A stretch of 64,000 nt of DNA from assembly GCA_025362735.1 (NCBI GenBank), contig JANYFL010000065.1, forward strand, positions 1-64,000, in the 5' to 3' direction. This document shows, in pieces, positions 23,516-38,544 of the stretch (position 1 is the stretch's first letter; the number at the start of each line of letters is the position of its first letter). The position numbers and the translations under genes were made by a program. The stretch is from Betaproteobacteria bacterium. Lineage in GTDB: Bacteria > Pseudomonadota > Gammaproteobacteria > Burkholderiales > Burkholderiaceae_D. The notes under the pieces were generated by a model. It saw only the letters and a list, made by a program, of their open reading frames with translations. It had not been told where the DNA came from and did not search any database.

Positions 23516-23971
23516 ATGAACACCGAAATGAGCTGGCAAGAAAATTTACTCACGCAATCTGAACAAATTTCCGCGTTGCTGAAACAGACACAACGCATTG
23601 CCGTGCTGGGTATCAAAACCGAAGCGCAATTCGATCAACCCGCTTTTTATGTGCCCGAGTATCTGGTTTCGGTTGGCCTCGAGGTTATTCCAGTGCCGAT
23701 CTATTACCCCGAAGTCACGCAAATATTGGGACAGAAGGTGTATCGCAAATTGGCAGATATACCAGGACCTGTCGATATGGTCGATGTGTTTCGTAAATCA
23801 CAAGACGTTTCCAAACATCTGGAAGACTTATTATTGAAAAAGCCCAAGTCCGTATGGCTGCAGCTCGGTATCCGGAATGATGCGGTCGCCGAAACATTGG
23901 CAAAAGCGGGCATCAAAGTCGTTCAGGATCGTTGTTTGATGGTCGATCATCGACGCATGCTTAGGACTTGA
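23516..23971 (+). CDS. CoA-binding domain protein (YccU-like)
   Basis: Rossmann-fold CoA-binding protein of about 150 residues, comparable to E. coli YccU. RIAVLGIKTEAQFDQPAFYVPEYL gives the nucleotide-binding start (RIAVLGIKTEAQFDQPAFY in part), then VIPVPIYYPEV, VDMVDVFRKSQD, WLQLGIRNDAV and the characteristic VQDRCLMVDHRRM near the C terminus. Cellular role not known. It is divergent from the response regulator. Confidence 0.85.
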   Translation: MNTEMSWQENLLTQSEQISALLKQTQRIAVLGIKTEAQFDQPAFYVPEYLVSVGLEVIPVPIYYPEVTQILGQKVYRKLADIPGPVDMVDVFRKSQDVSKHLEDLLLKKPKSVWLQLGIRNDAVAETLAKAGIKVVQDRCLMVDHRRMLRT

Positions 23972-24707
23972 TTGAACTCTGCGATTTGAGTTTCGTAATT
24001 TTTGGTTCTGGTGTACCGGCCCAGGTCAGGCTGTAACTGGCGCCTCTGCGGACGTTGCCGACCAATGCAGGCCTGAAGCAGGCGAGGTTCATGCCCTCAG
24101 GGCGCCGCACACTCGGGTAGAGAATGCCCATCGATCCTGCTTCGAGTAATTGTCCTGCCAGCTGCTGCGAATGGATATAACTGGCCGGGTCAAGGCAATT
24201 AGCAAAGGCTTTGGCTGTTCGTTTCGGTCGCAAATCATGAAAGCTGCTGTTGAAATCAGCCAATAGATTTTGATACTGCACGCTGTCGTCAAAGCGATGG
24301 ATTTCCTGATACTCCACATTCTTGTGGAAGATGATTTCAGCCAGCGCCGTTTCGATATCGAAAGCGCAATACCAGGCACCACGCTCACCATCGTTGAAGC
24401 GGCTGCCTTCGGGACGGGGATACGTGAAGGCGGCGTTGATGACGCGAAACTGCGGTACGCCAAATACCAGTTCATCGATACCAATCCCGGGAGTTCGTCC
24501 GTGTTCTGCCATTAATCGCGCATTGGTGGCGTTGTCGAGATCAAACAGCTGATTCAGATGCGCGATGTCTTCCGAAAGCGGAGCCAGAACGGAATCTTCC
24601 TGATCGGCAAAACGTGAGGGAATCAGTCGACAGGTGTCGAATTGCCGTAGTGGGGAAACGGGAGGAAGCTGCACCGCTAAGAACTTATAAGCCGCCGCGT
24701 CGGGCAT
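23961..24707 (-). CDS. RES-domain toxin (NAD+-degrading)
   Basis: Toxin component of a RES/Xre toxin-antitoxin pair; characterised RES toxins (ParT, MbcT) degrade or modify NAD+ or its use. The RES core is visible: FRVINAAFTYPRPEGSRFND in part (SRFNDGERGAWYCAFDIETALAEIIFHK, split here as SRFNDGERGAWYCAF and DIETALAEIIFHK), carrying Arg, Tyr and Glu at the family positions, and LYPSVRRPEGMNLACFRP at the end. Its ATG overlaps the antitoxin gene by 23 bases, antitoxin first, as usual. 248 residues. It overlaps the end of the convergent CoA-binding gene by 11 bases. Confidence 0.85.
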   Translation of the reverse strand: MPDAAAYKFLAVQLPPVSPLRQFDTCRLIPSRFADQEDSVLAPLSEDIAHLNQLFDLDNATNARLMAEHGRTPGIGIDELVFGVPQFRVINAAFTYPRPEGSRFNDGERGAWYCAFDIETALAEIIFHKNVEYQEIHRFDDSVQYQNLLADFNSSFHDLRPKRTAKAFANCLDPASYIHSQQLAGQLLEAGSMGILYPSVRRPEGMNLACFRPALVGNVRRGASYSLTWAGTPEPKITKLKSQSSIKS

Positions 24708-25125
24708 CGACTAGCTTGCGCACTGTCTGCATCGCCAGCAGTCCTCCGGCCAACATGGTATCCAGAGGCGTACGTCCCGCAAAAATCGTATTCTGATTCG
24801 GCAGCTTCACCCATTCATCCGCCAGCTTGTCGCCATAGAGAATGTGTAGTGCCTTGTAGATACCAATCAGATAAGAAATACGCGTGATCCGGTCGACTTC
24901 AAGCACGCGTTCAGGATTCTTTTTCCACTCGTAAAAAGCGCTGCTCGACAAACCGCCCAGCAGCTCGCGCGCTTCTTCATCGCGCAGCTTCCATTGTTCG
25001 GCCAGCTTGAAAAAGCCCTTGAGTGCCGCTTTCGACAGCCGCTCGCGCTCGGCCTTGGCATTCAGGTCAACCAGGACGGCAGGTTCAAAACGGCTGGCAG
25101 GATAGGTGTAAGCGAGTGCAGACAT
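24685..25125 (-). CDS. Xre/MbcA/ParS-type antitoxin
   Basis: Partner antitoxin of the RES toxin. An N-terminal helix-turn-helix-like part (about residues 25-75: RLSKAALKGFFKLAEQWKL, LGGLSSSAFYEWKK) is followed by the C-terminal DUF2384 toxin-binding domain (RITRISYLIGIYKALHILYG in part, WVKLPNQNTIFAGRTPLDTM in part), whose tail inserts into the toxin. The ATG at 25125 has GGAG 9 bases upstream. 146 residues. It probably represses its own promoter, located in 25126-25250. Confidence 0.85.
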   Translation of the reverse strand: MSALAYTYPASRFEPAVLVDLNAKAERERLSKAALKGFFKLAEQWKLRDEEARELLGGLSSSAFYEWKKNPERVLEVDRITRISYLIGIYKALHILYGDKLADEWVKLPNQNTIFAGRTPLDTMLAGGLLAMQTVRKLVDARRGGL

Positions 25126-25252
25126 ATGTTCTCCGGATATGGACAATATAGACTCCATTTCAGGAAAAGCAAGTCTGCGCCTCCCAATAGCCTGAATGGC
25201 TTGCCATGGCCCTGTTCGCCAACTAGACTGATTAAGCGGGTAGAGGGGTGAT

Positions 25253-26422
25253 ATGAAAAAAATAGTCGTTCTGTTTCTGGGCATTTTCCTGAGTGCTTGT
25301 GCAACGCTGCCCGCGCCGCAGAGGACGGTTGATCTGTTCCATGACAATTGGTTTGCGCCGCCAAAAGAACAGATGAATCCAGCCGATGTCTTCGCTCTGA
25401 ACGACGAAATGCGCAAATTTCTAAAGACTGAGATTGAAAGTCAAGCAGCGACTAAAGGTCCCCGGAAGGCCCTGTTCGACGCCCTTTACGATAAGAAGCT
25501 GCTCCGTCTTGAATATGACACCAGCTTTACGCGCAATGCATCAGAAGCATTTTCGGCACGCACCGGAAACTGTCTGTCGCTCGTAATCATGACCGGAGCA
25601 TTCGCCAAACAGCTTGGCTTGCAGGTCGTTTATCAAAATGTACTGGGCAATGAATCCTGGAGTCGTCCCACGGAAGATCTTTATTTCGCCAGCACTCATG
25701 TCAATCTCAGCCTGGTTGAACGGCCCGCGCAAATTATTAGACTCGCTGATGGCTCTTCGGCACAGCAAAATTTTCTGGTCACGATTGATTTTGTGCCTCC
25801 GGAAGAAATTCTTAAACAACGCCGCCGCGTACTGAAAGAAAATACCGTGGTCGCCATGTTCATGAATAACCGTGCGGCAGAGACCCTTGCGCTTGGACAA
25901 GTCGACGAGGCTTACTGGTGGGCACGAGCAGCAGCCAAACAGGACCCACAGTTCATGACCGCCTATAACACGCTAGGTGTGATTTACCGCAGGCATCGGC
26001 ATCTGAATGAAGCGGTCGAGTTGCTTCGCTACGTGCTTGAAATCGAACCGGAGAATATCCAGGCGATGTCGAATCTGTCTTTCACCCTTGCTGATCTCGG
26101 CCAAAACACCGAAGCTCAAGCACTCGCAGCCCAGGTCAAACAACTACGCGCCAATCCCCCTTATTATTTCTTCGACCAAGGTATGGCCGCGATGAAAAAA
26201 GCGGATTACCGTACCGCCAAAGAGATGTTCACCAAAGAATTGAGTCGGGATCGGTCGAATCATGAGTTCCACGCTTGGCTCGCCGCTGCCTATGCCGGCC
26301 TGGACAATATGGAGCTGGCACGTCGACATCTGGGCCTTGCCATCGAAAACAGTCCAACCCGCGCCGAGCGTGAGCTTTACTCACACCAACTCGCCCAGAT
26401 TGGGTCAAGCAATTTGCATTAG
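25253..26422 (+). CDS. TPR lipoprotein with transglutaminase-like domain
   Basis: Exported lipoprotein: signal peptide with lipobox LSAC, lipidated Cys16. About residues 50-190 look like a transglutaminase/protease-like fold with Cys in ARTGNCLSLVIMTGAFAKQL and His in ASTHVNLSL, possibly followed by Asp in TIDFVPPEE. About residues 205-385 are TPR repeats (ALGQVDEAYWWARAAAKQDP, YNTLGVIYRRHRHLNEAVEL). A clear ribosome site (AGAGGGG) precedes the ATG. Known as a family of uncharacterised envelope lipoproteins; the catalytic role is unproven. 389 residues; it ends one base before the convergent sigma factor gene. Confidence 0.82.
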   Translation: MKKIVVLFLGIFLSACATLPAPQRTVDLFHDNWFAPPKEQMNPADVFALNDEMRKFLKTEIESQAATKGPRKALFDALYDKKLLRLEYDTSFTRNASEAFSARTGNCLSLVIMTGAFAKQLGLQVVYQNVLGNESWSRPTEDLYFASTHVNLSLVERPAQIIRLADGSSAQQNFLVTIDFVPPEEILKQRRRVLKENTVVAMFMNNRAAETLALGQVDEAYWWARAAAKQDPQFMTAYNTLGVIYRRHRHLNEAVELLRYVLEIEPENIQAMSNLSFTLADLGQNTEAQALAAQVKQLRANPPYYFFDQGMAAMKKADYRTAKEMFTKELSRDRSNHEFHAWLAAAYAGLDNMELARRHLGLAIENSPTRAERELYSHQLAQIGSSNLH

Positions 26423-29037: not shown

Positions 29038-29098
29038 ATTTTCCGTTCGTCCTGAGTGCCGCACGAAGTGCGGTGTATCGAAGGATGAATGGAAAATG
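29038..29098. repeat. REP-like palindrome, family R1 (copy a)
   Basis: TTTTCCGTTCGTCCTGAGT ... ATCGAAGGATGAATGGAAAA, with an inner stem GCCGCAC / GTGCGGT. Other copies: 30200-30248, 30283-30338, 36414-36470, 50374-50434. Confidence 0.8.
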
Positions 29099-30743: not shown

Positions 30744-30866
30744 AAGGCAGCTCCTCTTGCTCGTTGGTTGCGCTAAGTTACGCGCATTCTACGCAACGCT
30801 TTGTTGACAACGGATAGATCGTGACATGCCGAAAAATATTTCAATCTCGAAACAACCCAGCTAGCT

Positions 30867-30949
30867 TGCGGAGAATAAATCGGTATTCGCCGCACAATAT
30901 GCGGTGAATATATTGCTTATGCGGAGAATAATGGCCATAATCTCCGCAT
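30867..30949 (+). promoter_or_regulatory. Operator array upstream of the first Fic gene
   Basis: Five copies of a motif close to TGCGGAGAATA: forward at 30867, 30900 and 30920 (the second reads TGCGGTGAATA), inverted at 30884-30894 (TATTCGCCGCA) and 30939-30949 (AATCTCCGCAT), the last one overlapping the Fic start codon. The arrangement suggests a repressor site; the protein that binds is not known, but the Fic protein itself ends in a winged helix. Confidence 0.65.
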
Positions 30950-32063
30950 GAAACGCGGTGATTACCCTTATATCTGGCAGGACGGCGACTGGCCAAATTT
31001 TCAGTACGACCTCGGAACACTCGCGGGGTCACTGTCCGAAGTCAGTCGTGCCCAAGGATTACTTCACGGTCGCTTGGCCGATGTCGGTCTGGACTTTCGT
31101 GATCAAGCCAGTTTAGCGGCGTTGACAGAAGACGTGGTCAAAACCAGCGAGATCGAAGGCGAGAAACTGGACGTCGAATCGGTCCGCTCATCCATTGCCC
31201 GCCGCCTTGGTGTGGACATCGGCGCACTTGCACCCGTAGATCGTCACGTGGAAGGCGTCGTCGAAATGGTGCTGGGTGCAACGGCACGTGGTGATGTAGA
31301 GCTGACTCAAGATCGCTTGTGTGGCTGGCATACGGCTTTATTTCCGAAGGGCTCAACCGGACTTGCCTCGATTCAGGTTGGCACCTATCGCAATGATGCC
31401 AGCGGCCCCATGCAAGTCGTGTCGGGTCCCATCGGTCGTCAGCGCATTCACTTCGAAGCGCCACCAGCGAATCATTTGCACGCCGAGATGGCGCGCTTTT
31501 TTGATTGGGTCAACACCGGCACCAACGATCATCCCATTCTTAAAGCAGGCATCGCGCACTTATGGTTTGTCACCGTGCACCCATTCGACGATGGCAATGG
31601 CCGCATCGCGCGCGCCATCGGTGATCTGCTGCTGGCCCGTGCCGATGGCAGCCCGCAGCGCTTCTATAGTTTGTCGGCGCAGATTCAACGTCACCGGCAG
31701 GATTACTACAATATTCTGGAACGCACCCAAAAGAGTTCGATGGATGTAACGCCCTGGCTCCAATGGTTTCTCGAAAACCTGACTATGGCGATTAACGCCG
31801 CGCAACACAACCTCGATGCCGTACTGGTTAAAACGCGCTTCTGGCAACAATGGGCCACTACACCGCTGAACGAGCGGCAAGTTAAACTGATCAATCGTTT
31901 GTTCGATGGCTTTGAAGGCAAGCTCAACAGCAGTAAGTGGGCGGTTATTGCCAAGTGTTCCCCCGACACGGCGTTGCGCGATATCAATGAATTGCTGGCT
32001 CTTGGCATTTTGCGCAAGTCAGGGGCGGGTGGGCGTAGTACGAGTTATGAGCTGAATGCATAA
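30948..32063 (+). CDS. Fic-domain protein with DUF4172 and winged helix
   Basis: Fic enzymes transfer AMP (or related groups) to Tyr, Thr or Ser of target proteins. About residues 5-85 match the DUF4172 N-terminal region, including the inhibitory motif with Thr66, Glu70 and Gly71 (KTSEIEGEKL) that blocks ATP until released. The complete active motif HPFDDGNGRIAR is at 211-222. About residues 305-371 form a winged helix (LNERQVKLINRLFDGF, SPDTALRDINELLALGIL). Class II Fic by motif position. 371 residues. Its promoter carries a repeated operator that reaches the start codon, so self-regulation is plausible. Target unknown. Confidence 0.92.
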   Translation: MKRGDYPYIWQDGDWPNFQYDLGTLAGSLSEVSRAQGLLHGRLADVGLDFRDQASLAALTEDVVKTSEIEGEKLDVESVRSSIARRLGVDIGALAPVDRHVEGVVEMVLGATARGDVELTQDRLCGWHTALFPKGSTGLASIQVGTYRNDASGPMQVVSGPIGRQRIHFEAPPANHLHAEMARFFDWVNTGTNDHPILKAGIAHLWFVTVHPFDDGNGRIARAIGDLLLARADGSPQRFYSLSAQIQRHRQDYYNILERTQKSSMDVTPWLQWFLENLTMAINAAQHNLDAVLVKTRFWQQWATTPLNERQVKLINRLFDGFEGKLNSSKWAVIAKCSPDTALRDINELLALGILRKSGAGGRSTSYELNA

Positions 32064-32162
32064 AACACTACCGAAACACTTTACGCTGTTCGATCTGTCG
32101 GTTGAACCGTCGCTTTAGGACGAGCAGCGAGCCAGGCTTGTATAGATCGAGCGCAAATCAAT

Positions 32163-34331
32163 TTAGTTGAGGCAGCATTTCTTGAATTTGCGTCCGCTGC
32201 CGCATGGGCATGGGTTGTTCCGGCCAATCTTTTTTGCTCGGTTTCGTCCCTTCATTAATGCCTCAAGCGCCTGATCGATAGGCACTGGCGCTTGCATCTC
32301 TTTAGTTTTCTCATCCATGTTCACATCTTGAGTCCACGGAAAGACCAAAGATACCCCGAACCGCAGGTCCGGTCCCTTAGAACTCATGCAGAGACCAAAC
32401 CACTCCTTAGCCTTCTGCTTATATTTACGAAGCTCGCAGTAAGACTCTAAGCGAGGGCCAGCCACGTGAGTCGGCTCATCAGTGCAGTGGAAGGTAATGC
32501 CAGAACCCTCCTTGAATGCGAATGTGGCGTCATGCAACTTGCCGTCAGCGCGAGTCCGAGCAGACAGCCTGTTTATGGCGCGGCTCATTTCGATCACAGC
32601 CTGTTCGTTCATTGCTAGGAGTAAGAAGCCGAGATCGATAGTTGCAGGGTTTGGTCGAGCTTCAATTTCCTTCACCACTCGACCAACTGTCGTTTCTGCA
32701 AACCGAGTAAGGACACCATCGGGTGTAGCGGCTCCTTGCACACCAGTCCGTCTAACTGTCATCGCAATGTCTAACCCGACCGAAAAGCTATCGTCTAGAT
32801 GCATAAGGTTGATGTCAGGCTGCACCCAAAGATTTTTCGCAAGGTGATAGCCAAGAATCGTCAGCTCCTGTGACGCTATGAGTTGCTCGGCATAGTTAGC
32901 CCGGCGGTTCACGTAGCTAAGAAACTGTAAAGGCGACTGCAGCATTTCGGTCATGGCATCAACCGCGAATACGTCCATAACCAACGGCGCTTGCACCTGA
33001 TCGAGATTTTCTGTCTGCAGGAACTGCCTTGTCTGAAAGCTCAAGGCTGGGTAGTGATCGATGACGACACAGAAGATGTAGATCTCCTTGATGTCCTGCG
33101 GCAGTATGACATCGCGCCCGTCAGGGGTTACCAACTTGTAGCGCTTGTCGAGCAGACACTTGGCGCACGCGGTCCCTTGGTCGTAGGCCATCTGCACCGC
33201 TTTCTTGAAGTCGTCGCGGATAACCTGATCATTCCCTTTTCTCGATTCCAGAGTCAGGCGCTTTGATTTAGCCTGCACGATAACAACCCTATTACCCCAT
33301 ACGACAAGCACGTCGATGTCAGAAACCTTTATCGCTTTGGTTTCGAAGACATCAACGTTCAGATGAACATACTCGTTCCCGAAGACCAAGCCGAGGCGCT
33401 CGGCTACAAAATTCTCAGTGAAGTCGCCTCGGTTCTTGGCGAGCGTTGGACGATATGCATCGTCTTGGTACATCCAGTGGTGGGGGGCTTCGTAAATGGC
33501 CTCGGCAAGCGAATAGAACTGCAGTGATAGGAACTCTCCGTTTGGCATCCGCAGTAGGGGCGTAGCCGTGATGACGTTGAAGTCGTGCAGCGCGTTGAAC
33601 CCTTCATTGCGTTCTGTAGATGGCAGTTCAAATGCGCCGAGCACTCGTTCCACCACGTCAGTAGTAAGGTTTACCTTCACTGCAATCTCATCGGCAGTGA
33701 AGGTAAAGAGAGGGAGCATGGTCCATTCGTCTGGGTGTTGCTTTCGCATGCACTCACGAATTGCGTCTAAGTGGTCGGCGTGTACCTGCTCTACTGCTTT
33801 GGCGACACGTGAGGCTAAGTCGATGGTGAAGCCTCGATTTGCGTGGAGCCATGGCGCGTCAGCCGCGTATTTACGAACGGCCAGGCCCATGTACTGGAAG
33901 TTGTAGGCTGCTTCTCCGCTGTAGAAGATCGGCTCTCGCAGGGCCTCTCCTCGCTCAAATGGGTCGAAGCCGTTCTCCACCGCTTCCTTGGTCAGGCTTG
34001 ACCAGAATTCTCCAGATAGGCAGTGATGTAACTCTTCAAGGAGCTGCTCAGTCATATCCATATACTCCTGCACTGTCTTCGGCGCAGGTAGGCTCCAGTC
34101 GATCTCAGCCTTTATCATCAAGCCGAGCAAAGTATTGATCTCTGTTCGGATGAGCCGAGAGGGGGAGAACCTCTTCCTCATATCGGCTTCCTTCATGTCA
34201 CCAGCGTAGAGGATTACGTTGTCACGGAAACAGAGATGGGCTACGGCATGGACGTAGCCAGGCCGACAACATTGCGCTGCCAGCTCGGCAAAGACTTCTT
34301 GCTCTGTTCGCGTGGCTATATTCTCAGTCAT
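32163..34331 (-). CDS. Large predicted nuclease-like protein with SEC-C tail
   Basis: Not a recognised named gene. 722 residues from the ATG at 34331 (AGGA upstream; an upstream frame would add 19). About 300-380 resemble a PD-(D/E)XK or NERD-type nuclease core: DFTENFVAERLGLVFGN with Glu306/Glu311, SDIDVLVVWGNRVVIVQAKS with Asp338, Asp340, Gln353 and Lys355. The last 20 residues are a SEC-C zinc motif (NPCPCGSGRKFKKCC) as in SecA, which often causes misnaming as SecA. The flanking parts are mostly helical, of unknown kind. It lies between two Fic genes, and a defence or stress role is inference only. Confidence 0.75.
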   Translation of the reverse strand: MTENIATRTEQEVFAELAAQCCRPGYVHAVAHLCFRDNVILYAGDMKEADMRKRFSPSRLIRTEINTLLGLMIKAEIDWSLPAPKTVQEYMDMTEQLLEELHHCLSGEFWSSLTKEAVENGFDPFERGEALREPIFYSGEAAYNFQYMGLAVRKYAADAPWLHANRGFTIDLASRVAKAVEQVHADHLDAIRECMRKQHPDEWTMLPLFTFTADEIAVKVNLTTDVVERVLGAFELPSTERNEGFNALHDFNVITATPLLRMPNGEFLSLQFYSLAEAIYEAPHHWMYQDDAYRPTLAKNRGDFTENFVAERLGLVFGNEYVHLNVDVFETKAIKVSDIDVLVVWGNRVVIVQAKSKRLTLESRKGNDQVIRDDFKKAVQMAYDQGTACAKCLLDKRYKLVTPDGRDVILPQDIKEIYIFCVVIDHYPALSFQTRQFLQTENLDQVQAPLVMDVFAVDAMTEMLQSPLQFLSYVNRRANYAEQLIASQELTILGYHLAKNLWVQPDINLMHLDDSFSVGLDIAMTVRRTGVQGAATPDGVLTRFAETTVGRVVKEIEARPNPATIDLGFLLLAMNEQAVIEMSRAINRLSARTRADGKLHDATFAFKEGSGITFHCTDEPTHVAGPRLESYCELRKYKQKAKEWFGLCMSSKGPDLRFGVSLVFPWTQDVNMDEKTKEMQAPVPIDQALEALMKGRNRAKKIGRNNPCPCGSGRKFKKCCLN

Positions 34332-34590
34332 TGGTTCATCATTCCTAGTCTGCATTTTTAAGTTTTGTAGTCGTGGGAAATTAACCATTTTTCACTTGCC
34401 AAATTGGGATGGTTTCTCTGCCTACCAATGCCAAAAATCAACTGCTCGATCATCTGCGCGTCGCCCGTTGATAACGATGCCATTCTCGGCTTTTGCGGAC
34501 TTTGGATCACTTCTCTCAAGCTGATCGGAGCTAGGAATGGGAATCGGCCATTCTGACTAGTCAAGGCGCGAACTAACGTTCCACTGCTGT

Positions 34591-35640
34591 TCAGCGCAGG
34601 TCGTACCAGACACCTCGACCACTGCCATGCTGATTCAGCGTGCCGCGTTCGACCAATGCCCGGAAATGTTGTTTGAGCGTGTTGCGACTGGTATTGGTCA
34701 GCTTGATGGCCTCGCCGATGGTCACGCGACCGTGCTCTCGGGCGAACTCAACGATCTGAAGCGACAGCTCGGGCATGGTCGCCAGCACGATCTTCTCGCG
34801 CTCGACTTTCTTCTCCAGTCGCTGCACTTGTTCAGTCAGGGAGCGCAGGAAGAACTCGAGCCACGGCTGCCAGTTCGGCGACTCCGCGCGGATCGTTCCC
34901 TGCGTTTGTCGCAGCGCCAGGTAGTAGGCTTCCTTGCTCTGTTCGACCACGCTTTCCAGTGAGCTATAGGGCACATAGGCGTAACCCGCCTGCATGAGCA
35001 GAAGCGTAGTCAGCGCGCGGCTTAGTCGGCCGTTACCGTCCTGGAAGGGATGGATTTCCAGAAATACCACGACGCAAAGGGCGATGATCAGCAGGGGATG
35101 CAGGCGCGCTGCTTCTCGTTCGCCGTTGACCCACGCCACGAGTTCCGTCATCAGGCGAGGTGTGTCGAAAGGTGACGCAGTCTGAAATACGATGCCGATC
35201 TGCGTGCCGTGCTCGTCGAAGGCAACGACGCTGTTCGAGTTGGTCTTGTATTTGCCGCGATGCCAGGTGTCCTTCTCACTGTGACGCAAAAGAATCTGGT
35301 GGAGCTGCCTGATGTGGTTTTCGGTGAATGGAATGTCCTGCCAGGATAAGAACACCAGTTCCATCAGCTCGGCATAGCCAGCGACCTCTTGCTCGTCGCG
35401 GGTGGCGAAGGACTTGATCTCAAGGTTCAACAACAGTTGCTCCACTTCCCGGTCGGATAGCCTGCTGCCCTCGATGCGGGTGGATGAGCCAATGCTCTCG
35501 ATGGTGGCCACGCGAAGGAGGGCCGACAAGCGATCAGGTGCGAGCGCGCCCAAAGCGCGCCAAGCGCCTTTGAATTCGTCGATCCTGGCGATGAGGTTCA
35601 GGATTTCTGGCGTGATCTGGATGGTGTCGGTTCGTAGCAT
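34591..35640 (-). CDS. Fic-domain protein with winged helix (second copy)
   Basis: 349-residue Fic/DOC-type protein, only distantly similar to the first. Inhibitory motif with Ser53, Glu57 and Gly58 (SSTRIEGSRL), then YKTNSNSVVA region, and the full active motif HPFQDGNGRLSR at 197-208. The C-terminal 65 residues are a winged helix (VTIGEAIKLTNTSRNTLKQH). The ATG at 35640 gives MLRTDTIQIT, a normal start for the family; an earlier in-frame start at 35682 would lie inside a tandem repeat. It is in the opposite orientation to the first Fic gene. Modified target unknown. Confidence 0.9.
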   Translation of the reverse strand: MLRTDTIQITPEILNLIARIDEFKGAWRALGALAPDRLSALLRVATIESIGSSTRIEGSRLSDREVEQLLLNLEIKSFATRDEQEVAGYAELMELVFLSWQDIPFTENHIRQLHQILLRHSEKDTWHRGKYKTNSNSVVAFDEHGTQIGIVFQTASPFDTPRLMTELVAWVNGEREAARLHPLLIIALCVVVFLEIHPFQDGNGRLSRALTTLLLMQAGYAYVPYSSLESVVEQSKEAYYLALRQTQGTIRAESPNWQPWLEFFLRSLTEQVQRLEKKVEREKIVLATMPELSLQIVEFAREHGRVTIGEAIKLTNTSRNTLKQHFRALVERGTLNQHGSGRGVWYDLR

Positions 35641-35650
35641 CAACCAATAG

Positions 35651-35700
35651 TACACCCATTTACACCCATTTTCGGATTGCATCCATTAGGGCGCCCATTT
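35651..35700 (-). promoter_or_regulatory. Tandem repeat operator upstream of the second Fic gene
   Basis: TACACCCATT occurs twice in direct tandem (35651-35670), followed by the related TGCATCCATT (35678-35687) and GCGCCCATTT (35691-35700). On the transcribed strand this is AATGGGTGTA repeated about every 10 bases, one helical turn, ending 11 bases before the start codon. A repressor binding site is likely. Confidence 0.55.
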
Positions 35701-35799
35701 ATATCCAATCGGGGCAATCGGTGGAACAGCTTGTCCTGATTAACAGCCGTAGGCAAAAGCTCCGACCAAAACGTTCACCTCTTGTTGACGAATGGGAAT

Positions 35800-35902
35800 C
35801 GCCCTTGCAGGGCGCGGTTGCGCTGGCAGGCGCAACCCGGTTCGGCGGCGCGAAGCATGCTTCGCGAAATCCCGCCTTACCCCCGCGTCCGTACCGGACG
35901 CG
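35800..35902. repeat. Cluster of four consecutive hairpins
   Basis: CGCCC-TTGCA-GGGCG (35800-35814), GGTTGCGC-N6-GCGCAACC (35816-35837), the perfect 18-base palindrome CGCGAAGCATGCTTCGCG (35849-35866) and CGCGTCCG-TAC-CGGACGCG (35884-35902) follow one another. No coding frame with similarity covers them. Confidence 0.7.
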
Positions 35903-35929
35903 AATTCGATTCCCCTCAATTCAATCACC

Positions 35930-35966
35930 CAACAAAAAACGCCCCGCGAGGGGGCGTTTTTTGTTG
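35930..35966 (-). terminator. Terminator of the tmRNA gene
   Basis: CAAAAAACGCCCC-GCGA-GGGGGCGTTTTTTG is a strong stem with A/T tracts on both sides, so it can work in either direction. It starts directly after the tmRNA CCA end. Confidence 0.9.
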
Positions 35967-35968
35967 GG

Positions 35969-36346
35969 TGGTGGAGCCGGCGGGAATCGAACCCGCGTCC
36001 GCAAGCCGTCCACAGGCAGTTCTACATACTTATCCGATCAACTTGGATTTAACTTCGCACTTTGCCGGTCGGCAGGCCAGTGAAAAGCGAGTCACCTAAA
36101 TCTAGGAGTACGCCAAGTAACCCGACGGACTCCGATCCTTTGTGTATGACGCTGCTGTCGCTACGGCTTGCGCCGCTTTGACCTAAACCAAAGGCAATCT
36201 AGTGCAGCGGTCTCGCGAGTTTCTTAGGCTGCGAGAGCGAAACGCTCGTCGTTTGCGTTTAACGATTTCCAGTGGATTTACGAGCGAACTGGTGCTCGGT
36301 ATGCCCTACGCTGCTTCTTGACCCACGTCGAAACCGGGTCGGCCCC
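35969..36346 (-). ncRNA. ssrA: Transfer-messenger RNA (tmRNA)
   Basis: Rescues stalled ribosomes and tags the unfinished protein. The 5' end reads GGGGCCGACCCGGTTTCGAC (36346 downwards) and the 3' end is a tRNA-like TTCGATTCCCGCCGGCTCCACCA segment (GGTTCGATTCCCGCCGGC then TCCACCA, 35969). The tag reading frame resumes at GCA (36256-36254) and encodes ANDERFALAA followed by TAA (36226-36224). Length 378. The 3' ends of ssrA genes are common integration sites, and the neighbouring DNA (30.8-35.7 kb) looks acquired. Confidence 0.96.
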
Positions 36347-37581: not shown

Positions 37582-37626
37582 CTTGATGGTGTTTGAATTA
37601 TCCCGATGTTTGGCACAATCATGCCT

Positions 37627-38544
37627 ATGAGCGCAACTATTCTCAATCAAAGCCAGCAAAGTATCGACCATTTTTGCGATACGGTTTGGCTGGAAGACGG
37701 GCTGGCGAAGAATACACTCGAAGCCTACCGGCGCGATCTGTCGCTGTTTGCACAATGGCTGGCCGAGCGTGACAAGTCCTTGCTGCAGGTCACCGAGACG
37801 GATGCGACCGACTATTTTGCTGCGCGTCATGCACAAACCAAGTCCACCAGTTCCAATCGTCGTCTCACGGTCTTGCGGCGCTTTTACCGGCTGGCTTTGC
37901 GCAATCATCAGGTCAGTGAAGATCCAACACGCCGCCTGGCGACGGCGAAGCAATCGACTCGCTTTCCTAAAACGCTCAGCGAGAAACAGGTGGAGGCTTT
38001 GCTGGCTGCGCCGGATGTCAACAAGCCGCTGGGTCTGCGTGACCGGGCTATGCTGGAGTTGATGTATGCCAGCGGCTTACGCGTCACCGAACTGGTTGCA
38101 ATCAAGACTCTGGAAGTGGGGCTGAATGAGGGTGTGGTGCGCGTGATCGGCAAGGGCAACAAGGAGCGCATGGTGCCGATGGGTGAAGAAGCGCGCGCGT
38201 GGATCGTGCGCTATATGCGCGAGTCGCGGCCGGTGTTGCTGGATGGTCGTGCGCTCGATGCCTTGTTCATCACCGCGCGCAAGGACCAGGCCGACCACGG
38301 CATGACGCGCCAGATGTTCTGGGTGCTGGTCAAGAAATACGCCTTGCAGGCCGATGTCAATGTGCCTTTGTCGCCGCATACGCTGCGTCATGCCTTTGCA
38401 ACCCATCTGCTGAATCACGGGGCCGACTTGCGCGTGGTGCAGATGCTGCTCGGCCATGCCGATATTTCAACGACACAAATCTACACACACGTCGCGCGCG
38501 AGCGGCTGAAGTCATTGCACGCGCAGCATCATCCTCGAGGATAA
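37627..38544 (+). CDS. xerD: Tyrosine recombinase XerD
   Basis: Resolves chromosome dimers at dif together with XerC and FtsK. The protein follows E. coli XerD closely: VWLEDGLAKNTLEAYRRDLS, MLELMYASGLRVTELVAI with catalytic Arg, GKGNKERMVPMGEEA, LSPHTLRHAFATHLLNHGAD (His/Arg pair), LLGHADISTTQIYTHVARER with the Tyr nucleophile, and the ending HAQHHPRG. The ATG at 37627 was chosen; ATG at 37621 also fits, neither with a ribosome site. About 305 residues. It is housekeeping rather than an island integrase. Confidence 0.92.
   Translation: MSATILNQSQQSIDHFCDTVWLEDGLAKNTLEAYRRDLSLFAQWLAERDKSLLQVTETDATDYFAARHAQTKSTSSNRRLTVLRRFYRLALRNHQVSEDPTRRLATAKQSTRFPKTLSEKQVEALLAAPDVNKPLGLRDRAMLELMYASGLRVTELVAIKTLEVGLNEGVVRVIGKGNKERMVPMGEEARAWIVRYMRESRPVLLDGRALDALFITARKDQADHGMTRQMFWVLVKKYALQADVNVPLSPHTLRHAFATHLLNHGADLRVVQMLLGHADISTTQIYTHVARERLKSLHAQHHPRG

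Follow-up and report, generated by a model that had tools for sequence, protein, structure and literature searches.

Fic proteins with a C-terminal winged helix are common in the order Burkholderiales (a DUF4172 match is present in 27 of 119 relatives) and some Fic proteins defend against phages, and how such proteins are kept safe is the question raised by the locus described here. It lies in the first 64 kb (the window, i.e., the whole stretch analyzed) of the 185-kb contig JANYFL010000065.1, which belongs to the 3.01-Mb assembly GCA_025362735.1 of a Betaproteobacteria bacterium. In order, the block holds a gene for a DUF4172-Fic-winged-helix protein (Fic1), a gene for a 722-residue NERD/SEC-C protein, and a second Fic-winged-helix gene (Fic2), followed by ssrA, the gene for transfer-messenger RNA (tmRNA). 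A preliminary description had proposed a mobile module in which Fic modification and nucleic-acid cleavage could cooperate. We consider it likely that these are instead three independent single-gene modules, and that each Fic winged helix would read a repeat array in its own promoter and repress its gene.

The half-sites upstream of Fic1 (Table 1) are separated by N6, N5, N9, and N7, and the last one has the A of the start codon as its final base. We compared them with homologue promoters drawn from the order and the class, setting aside matches that started past query residue 12 or scored below 120 bits, upstream regions shorter than 140 nt, and identical upstreams. Two or more copies of TGCGGNGAWTA, with one mismatch allowed, were present in 36 of 38 Fic1-family promoters (at least 50% identity, window included), typically in the lattice > N7 < N5 > N9 > N7 < followed by the start codon, the first gap being mostly N7 in relatives. 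Many of these promoters have fewer than five half-sites, and the divergent ones have their start codon further down. At least three copies of one 10-mer were found in 30 of the 38 promoters versus 17 of 411 control upstreams (Fisher, 1.9e-27), the controls being upstreams of open reading frames (ORFs) of at least 200 aa with mechanically called starts in L102-L141. Fic1 homologues below 50% identity have the word TGAGNCGAWTA, with two or more copies in 8 of 15 promoters, and one of the 15 keeps TGCGG.

The Fic2 family has another design, in which 10-bp direct repeats precede the gene, with the words AATGGGTGTA, TAATCCGGTA, TTATCGGGTA, and others. The mean self-match at lag 10 was 11.13 in 30 Fic2-family promoters versus 6.37 in the 411 controls, and a self-match of at least 12/14 was reached by 12 of the 30 versus none of the controls. 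Lags 8, 9, 11, and 13 were near the control level, and lag 12 was mildly raised (8.40 vs 6.61).

In the Fic1 family, proteins with different recognition helices have different words in their promoters. We tied 48 of 53 Fic1-family promoters to a helix, 2 being unreadable: behind the helix SxDTA (residue D) the word was TGCGG in 33 cases, TGAG in 0, and neither in 2, and behind SxAT[AS] (residue A) it was TGAG in 8, TGCGG in 0, and neither in 3. Among Fic2 proteins, the helices SRNTLKQHF, SPNTLK, NQNTLKVRL, and NRNTVKKHL tend, by eye, each toward its own word. This covariation of word and helix makes autorepression by each Fic protein probable.

Across 274 class genomes, 24 exact copies of the Fic1 dyad were counted, in 19 of the genomes, and the reversed control gave 0. 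Seventeen of the 24 abut Fic1 genes, one, with a Fic1 start, lies where its contig ends (L555), and one lies 89 bp upstream of a Fic2-type gene (G125:C4:52601); no Fic was found near the remaining five, four of which were checked by tblastn and one (G235:C1:1844772) only by its absence from the Fic match lists. In the genome of the window, only the Fic1 site matches the exact dyad. A search of 119 relatives with up to two mismatches gave, among the matches listed, 14 exact sites, of which 10 abut DUF4172-Fic genes, three (two in G034, the third in G470) belong to Fic1 promoters that either lie at a contig end or precede a broken Fic frame, and one (G050) has no Fic1 gene.

Two further observations concern these sites. 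Among dyads without Fic in bacterial chromosomes (L543, L545, L552, L554), inspection by eye shows a further half-site at head-to-head N5 in L545 and L554 and a second head-to-head pair 10 nt on in L543. There are also apparent junctions in which the promoter word precedes a gene of the other type (L202 and L171/L213; G125): a Fic1 gene stands behind a Fic2-type word at ssrA in L202, and Fic2-type genes stand behind a Fic1-type dyad in L171 and G125, as if Fic1 and Fic2 modules replaced one another at a shared spot.

By motif, both proteins are class II Fic AMPylases, and the intact motifs, inhibitory helices, and C-terminal winged helices named in the preliminary description were all found again at their coordinates. 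Fic1 matches DUF4172 (PF13776, E 1.7e-30) and Fic (PF02661, E 8.4e-17), carries the catalytic motif HPFDDGNGR and the inhibitory TSEIEG (HPFDDGNGRIAR/TSEIEG), and is a DUF4172-Fic-winged helix-turn-helix (wHTH) protein by domain test, with PDB 8cil as its closest solved relative (residues 8-369, E 6.6e-91); its winged helix was read from the alignment, as Pfam gives no HTH match for Fic1. Fic2 has a Fic domain (E 5.8e-18), the motif HPFQDGNGR, the inhibitory STRIEG (HPFQDGNGRLSR/STRIEG), and a winged helix, its closest solved relative is PDB 8uqu (E 1.5e-39), and its start is most likely the ATG at 35640 within the ORF 34591-35682. The features of class II are present in both.

From these sequences we infer binding of the Fic proteins to the arrays and repression. 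The winged helix of Fic1 would read the lattice of inverted TGCGGNGAWTA half-sites in its own promoter and repress Fic1, and that of Fic2 would read the head-to-tail 10-bp repeats in its own promoter and repress Fic2. By extension from CbFic2, array-bound Fic would be the safe state, from which stress or phage attack would release it. The intervening gene would encode a solitary PD-(D/E)XK nuclease-like protein, functionally separate from both.

Autoregulation by a Fic-HTH protein has already been published. According to its report, CccR of Yersinia pseudotuberculosis is a Fic-HTH protein that represses its own promoter, where inverted repeats were footprinted near -35 and -10 (PMC9755527). 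The likeness lies in a Fic enzyme with a C-terminal HTH and inverted repeats in its own promoter, and operator-like repeats, as CccR-like autoregulation would involve, are present in the own promoters of both Fic1 and Fic2. However, as described there, CccR has two 10-bp repeats 26 bp apart, whereas Fic1 has five half-sites and Fic2 10-bp tandems, with other words; CccR also differs in its secretion. CbFic2 (DUF4172-Fic-HTH) has the domain order of Fic1, binds random DNA tightly, and was proposed to form a deAMPylating dimer on DNA (PMC10628234), such that DNA binding by the HTH alters its activity from AMPylation to deAMPylation. The available text of that report leaves a specific DNA sequence undecided; random DNA was used there, whereas the Fic1-family arrays are candidate specific sites. 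SoFic, a class II Fic anti-phage protein (PMC12249575), resembles Fic1 and Fic2 as a class II single-protein Fic with an inhibitory helix, and both match its PADLOC model PDLC03963 (Fic1 E 4.5e-42, 19-367; Fic2 E 3.8e-50, 27-357). However, with 52.6 and 59.6 bits they fall far below the 550-bit cut-off of the NCBIfam SoFic equivalog NF046030, and their anti-phage role is only putative.

The exact Fic1 dyad is also found in at least 120 viral contigs. This count (121 dyads from 120 contig stretches) is a lower bound from a non-random sample; among the controls, a permuted half-site pattern with unchanged composition was found in 0 contigs and the correct half-sites at one wrong distance in 8. 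Among the 121 dyads listed, a Fic hit lies no more than 600 bp from 14; the other 107 have none within that distance and form 73 flank clusters, some from related phages. Agreement with the Fic motif extends to bases that the search pattern did not specify: positions 11/19 are A..T in 61 of 109 viral dyads (under an earlier Fic filter) and in 45 of 73 clusters. One more half-site, placed head-to-head at N4/N5 as in the lattice, accompanies 26 of the 107 Fic-less dyads listed, or 17 of 73 clusters, against 2 hits in 6848 tests at other distances. A PHROGs scan of 10 proteins beside viral dyads gave six matches, including a Holliday junction resolvase, a helicase loader, and a NinI-like phosphatase, and of four viral sites compared with named phages by blastn, two (L321, L408) were partially matched and two had no match. 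We set aside an apparent clustering of Fic2 words near viral Fic1 dyads (0.19-0.22/kb near, 0.02 far), as the words were picked post hoc and the contigs are few and perhaps related, and so they were not used as evidence; a related 17-base pattern alone, searched with no control pattern, occurred in 89 viral contigs.

These viral copies bear on how the arrays might work. The array could be the antidote of a one-gene toxin, with array-bound Fic a harmless dimer and free Fic an AMPylating toxin, and phages could have taken Fic-less arrays as DNA decoys or could exploit the host Fic as a regulator. We regard this extension as doubtful: 47 of the 73 viral clusters overlap an ORF of at least 100 aa, which counts against simple decoys, just 5 of the 17 clusters with the added half-site lie between genes, and the Fic2 words show no viral excess like that of Fic1. 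Three Fic2-type patterns were found in 4, 5, and 0 viral contigs; because they occur in only nine contigs, five of them with a Fic hit, the excess is limited to the Fic1 word. It is also conceivable that another regulator binds the arrays and that the Fic winged helix does something else, since the viral dyads mostly have no Fic nearby and 5 of the 24 exact bacterial dyads have none found beside them. This nevertheless seems unlikely to us, as the word goes with the Fic protein's own recognition helix, 17 of the 24 exact bacterial sites are at Fic1 genes, and relatives of the Fic1 wHTH in the 120 viral stretches (tblastn, E 0.01; stretches rather than whole contigs) were found only inside Fic proteins. 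That the arrays are structured RNA or DNA hairpins, such as terminators or leaders, rather than protein sites is barely credible, even though the dyads are palindromic, a terminator scan flags the one at 30883-30911, and the free position N6/N24 is complementary in 44 of 109 viral dyads, above the expected quarter. The W position is complementary in only 33 of 109 (AA 39, TT 37, TA 21, AT 12), positions 11/19 are A..T or G..T and never T..A or C..G, and the Fic2 family has direct repeats.

We then consider the gene between the two Fic genes, which looks like a solitary PD-(D/E)XK nuclease. SEC-C is matched at E 3.5e-8, and NERD (PF08378) at E 7.6e-4 with 20.4 bits against a cut-off of 22.1, a NERD match at E 0.01 or better being present in 28 of 33 homologues. 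The nuclease reading fits because D340, Q353, and K355 are invariant across the 33 homologues, and the 722-residue nuclease-like protein with a SEC-C tail of the preliminary description holds in this respect. Alignment A2 was made without L030 (stop codon), L045, and L077, and without further loci for reasons of size. Structure prediction of 32163-34331 with AlphaFold2 (33-homologue input) gave a confident model (mean pLDDT 88.2, pTM 0.86) with a helical N-terminus, a wHTH-like part (~168-280), a PD-(D/E)XK nuclease-like core (~297-475), an alpha/beta part, and SEC-C (~704-721). The only Foldseek match below E 0.001 was Upx (PDB 9wuf, E 6.6e-6), and in VIA the two aligned with Z 12.0 over 402 residues at a root-mean-square deviation of 4.7, followed in rank by nickases, Can2/Card1-type nucleases, and McrBC, all via the nuclease core. 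The Upx chain has 1212 residues versus 722 and the identity is 11-12%; the likeness is a structural one. Upx is counted among anti-phage systems in the reports that mention it (PMC12629846, PMC12824646). The NERD/SEC-C gene may be a defense gene, functionally unconnected with Fic, and for its product we infer a putative defense-nuclease function.

Its distribution appears to be that of a widely exchanged, mostly solitary gene. The core, with the SEC-C tail removed, was found in 4 of 369 class genomes, including the window's own and one weak partial match, and among 99 relatives drawn for comparison, none of the same genus as the window, a homologue extending beyond SEC-C was found in one only (G067), broken into two reading frames. 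Elsewhere it occurs on 42 of 72,556 plasmid records (19 of the 42 from Agrobacterium), at 112 confirmed loci in the genome collection (80 retained), and in 2 viral contigs, and it was absent from all 50,697 phage records searched. By title, the hosts are Proteobacteria, Nitrospirae, Acidobacteria, Bacteroidetes, Planctomycetes, and Cyanobacteria. In 88 loci with flanks of up to 10 kb, some shorter, no neighbor family occurred in more than 8, the most frequent being common families at scattered distances, and a Fic motif was present in the flanks of 3, with one doubtful match to a permissive pattern (L040, HVYAEGNRR) left uncounted. We conclude that the gene is mostly solitary because no neighbor recurs widely and the Fic motif is in only 3 of 88 flanks, and the proposed cooperation of Fic with the nuclease finds no support in this co-occurrence. 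Enrichment of defense islands around it was likewise rejected: a PADLOC scan covered 101 of the 136 nearest neighbors (the list omitting the near-duplicates L070, L082, and L096), and among the families listed (25 of 57) none had more than two members (AbiEi).

Six homologues reach at least 79% identity, and because 3 of these 6 also lie 3' of ssrA, the gene seems to travel on ssrA-targeting elements elsewhere. The three come from one Pseudomonadales, one Nitrospirae, and one Nitrosomonas metagenome-assembled genome (MAG); in L020, L026, and L076 the gene begins 0.4-1.0 kb 3' of the tmRNA gene, with a serine recombinase beyond it in L020. tmRNA was sought in 60 of the 80 loci kept from the genome collection.

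Whether the block is an ssrA island depends on the ssrA locus itself; the 3' end of ssrA faces the block. The three block genes include no integrase, and only one copy of the 27-nt ssrA end was found in 64 kb (up to 3 mismatches), which agrees with the earlier remark that neither an integrase nor a clear duplicated end was seen; the search for an integrase together with a duplicated ssrA end was negative, with not every ORF left of the block scanned. A recombinase gene (37606-38544), which we take to be XerC/D-like, sits on the 5' side of ssrA. The 51-nt inverted repeat was rejected as an attachment (att) duplicate, as the ssrA trailer is also present in relatives, being common to six in which no Fic gene was found there (L102, L108, L126, L127, L128, L210). 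Of all 52 relatives with a clear tmRNA (59 searched), 22 have gph no more than 200 bp 5' of ssrA and 29 have it within ~5 kb. In the window, gph (region 1-804) ends at contig base 70, and ssrA is 35 kb off, beside a transporter gene. Because gph is 35 kb away and a second ssrA, sought in the assembly, was not found, the ssrA locus was rearranged, or a contig break, e.g., at the former ssrA site, hides something. Integration of the classical kind finds no support here, given the missing att duplicate, the trailer of the six Fic-less relatives, and the displaced gph. The names gph, ubiG, GMP synthase (guaA), XerC/D, YCII/DGPF, and LysR-type are presumptive.

What does hold from the comparison of relatives is a preference of Fic genes for this spot. 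The 3' side of ssrA attracts Fic genes in this order: of 34 order relatives with enough sequence, 4 have a Fic ORF no further than 5 kb from the ssrA 3' end, versus 0 of 46 on the 5' side and 0 in the 602,674 other bases of the same loci, the count excluding the window, L020, L026, L076, and L119 (odd tmRNA end).

Beyond the terminator, an inverted partial copy of the ssrA end exceeded 100 of 100 shuffles in 9 of 51 ssrA loci tested (the window, L102, L108, L126, L127, L128, L137, L201, which barely did so, and L210). In L128, L137, and L210 the copy matches the variant ssrA end of its own locus more closely than it matches any of the 50 others, an outcome expected from template switching in the terminator hairpin or from pairing. 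The ssrA 3' flank (CCCCAACC..GGTTGGGGTTTTTTCTTG.. and variants) is similar across hosts that include a Pseudomonadales MAG and a Nitrosomonas MAG (L202, L104, L110, L111, L117, L135, L139, L200, L020, L076), which by eye suggests one ssrA-targeting element family.

A joint mobile Fic-nuclease-Fic defense island, integrated at ssrA with cooperating proteins, would draw on the patchiness of all three genes, on the Fic hot spot 3' of ssrA, and on the NERD/SEC-C genes close to tmRNA in L020, L026, and L076. These three loci, however, have no Fic motif, as is the case for all but 3 of the 88 homologue loci, the att repeat was not found, and the trailer is also present in empty sites. We consider such an island very unlikely and rejected it on co-occurrence and synteny; of the mobile module first proposed, the patchiness of each gene and the Fic preference for the ssrA 3' side stand, and the joint system and classical ssrA integration do not. 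Most likely, the three genes adjoin without forming one mobile system.

Several observations weigh against three self-contained and self-regulated modules. Some homologues (L257 and L252) have no clear array, and of the 15 promoters below 50% identity, 7 show one TGAG word or none, with five TGCGG words instead in one of these 7. A strict sigma-70 scan finds a promoter at neither Fic1 nor Fic2, and the promoter reading TTGC-N17-CATAAT was made by eye. The counts of helix and word ignore kinship, so the Fic1-family link may reflect one split. As reported for CccR, toxic and regulatory activities are independent (PMC9755527), which weakens the idea of a DNA-bound safe state. Around the NERD/SEC-C gene, a convergent gene is common to L014, L027, and L028, another neighbor to L077, L078, L082, and L096, a small recombinase-linked protein lies beside it in L020, L024, and L076, and serine recombinases are near it in five loci.

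Table 1. Features of the Fic1-NERD/SEC-C-Fic2 block and of the adjoining ssrA gene, in window coordinates
Feature	Position	Strand	Remarks
Fic1 promoter array, five TGCGGNGAWTA half-sites in 82 bp	30867..30948	+	
Fic1 half-sites	30867-30877 (+), 30884-30894 (-), 30900-30910 (+), 30920-30930 (+), 30938-30948 (-)		
Fic1, class II Fic enzyme by motif, DUF4172 + Fic + C-terminal winged helix, 371 aa	30948..32063	+	
NERD/SEC-C protein, 722 aa	32163..34331	-	Profile matches and model
Fic2, class II Fic enzyme by motif with C-terminal winged helix, 349 aa	34591..35640	-	ORF open to 35682
Fic2 promoter array, tandem AAATGGGTGTAAATGGGTGTA, 10-bp period, ends 10 nt before ATG	35651..35671	-	
ssrA terminator and inverted copy of ssrA 3' end, 51-nt arms, 82% complementary	35895..36001	.	
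ssrA (tmRNA), 3' end faces block	35969..36346	-	Only copy found in assembly

The base composition of the block is ordinary for the window. Four exact copies of a dispersed palindrome resembling repetitive extragenic palindromic (REP) elements (TCCGTTCGTCCTGAGT core) lie around it, at 29042, 30201, 30323, and 36449, with ~78 other places in the genome; because there are 82 matches genome-wide (up to 2 mismatches; 43 forward and 39 reverse, reversed control 3), those near the block are not special, and we rejected them as transposon ends. A RES/Xre-type toxin-antitoxin pair is present at 23961-25416 (RES E 4.9e-34; Xre-like HTH and MbcA/ParS C-terminal domain).

In conclusion, the two Fic genes apparently represent two self-regulating families with defined DNA words. 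We found no description of such Fic promoter arrays in the literature on Fic operators, autoregulation, and decoys; autoregulation as such is known from CccR, and the Fic promoter arrays and their Fic-less viral copies are the new result. The arrays supply exact, subfamily-specific sequences with which to test binding, repression, and the AMPylase/deAMPylase switch. If Fic-less viral arrays do act as decoys, they would be a counter-defense made of DNA alone.

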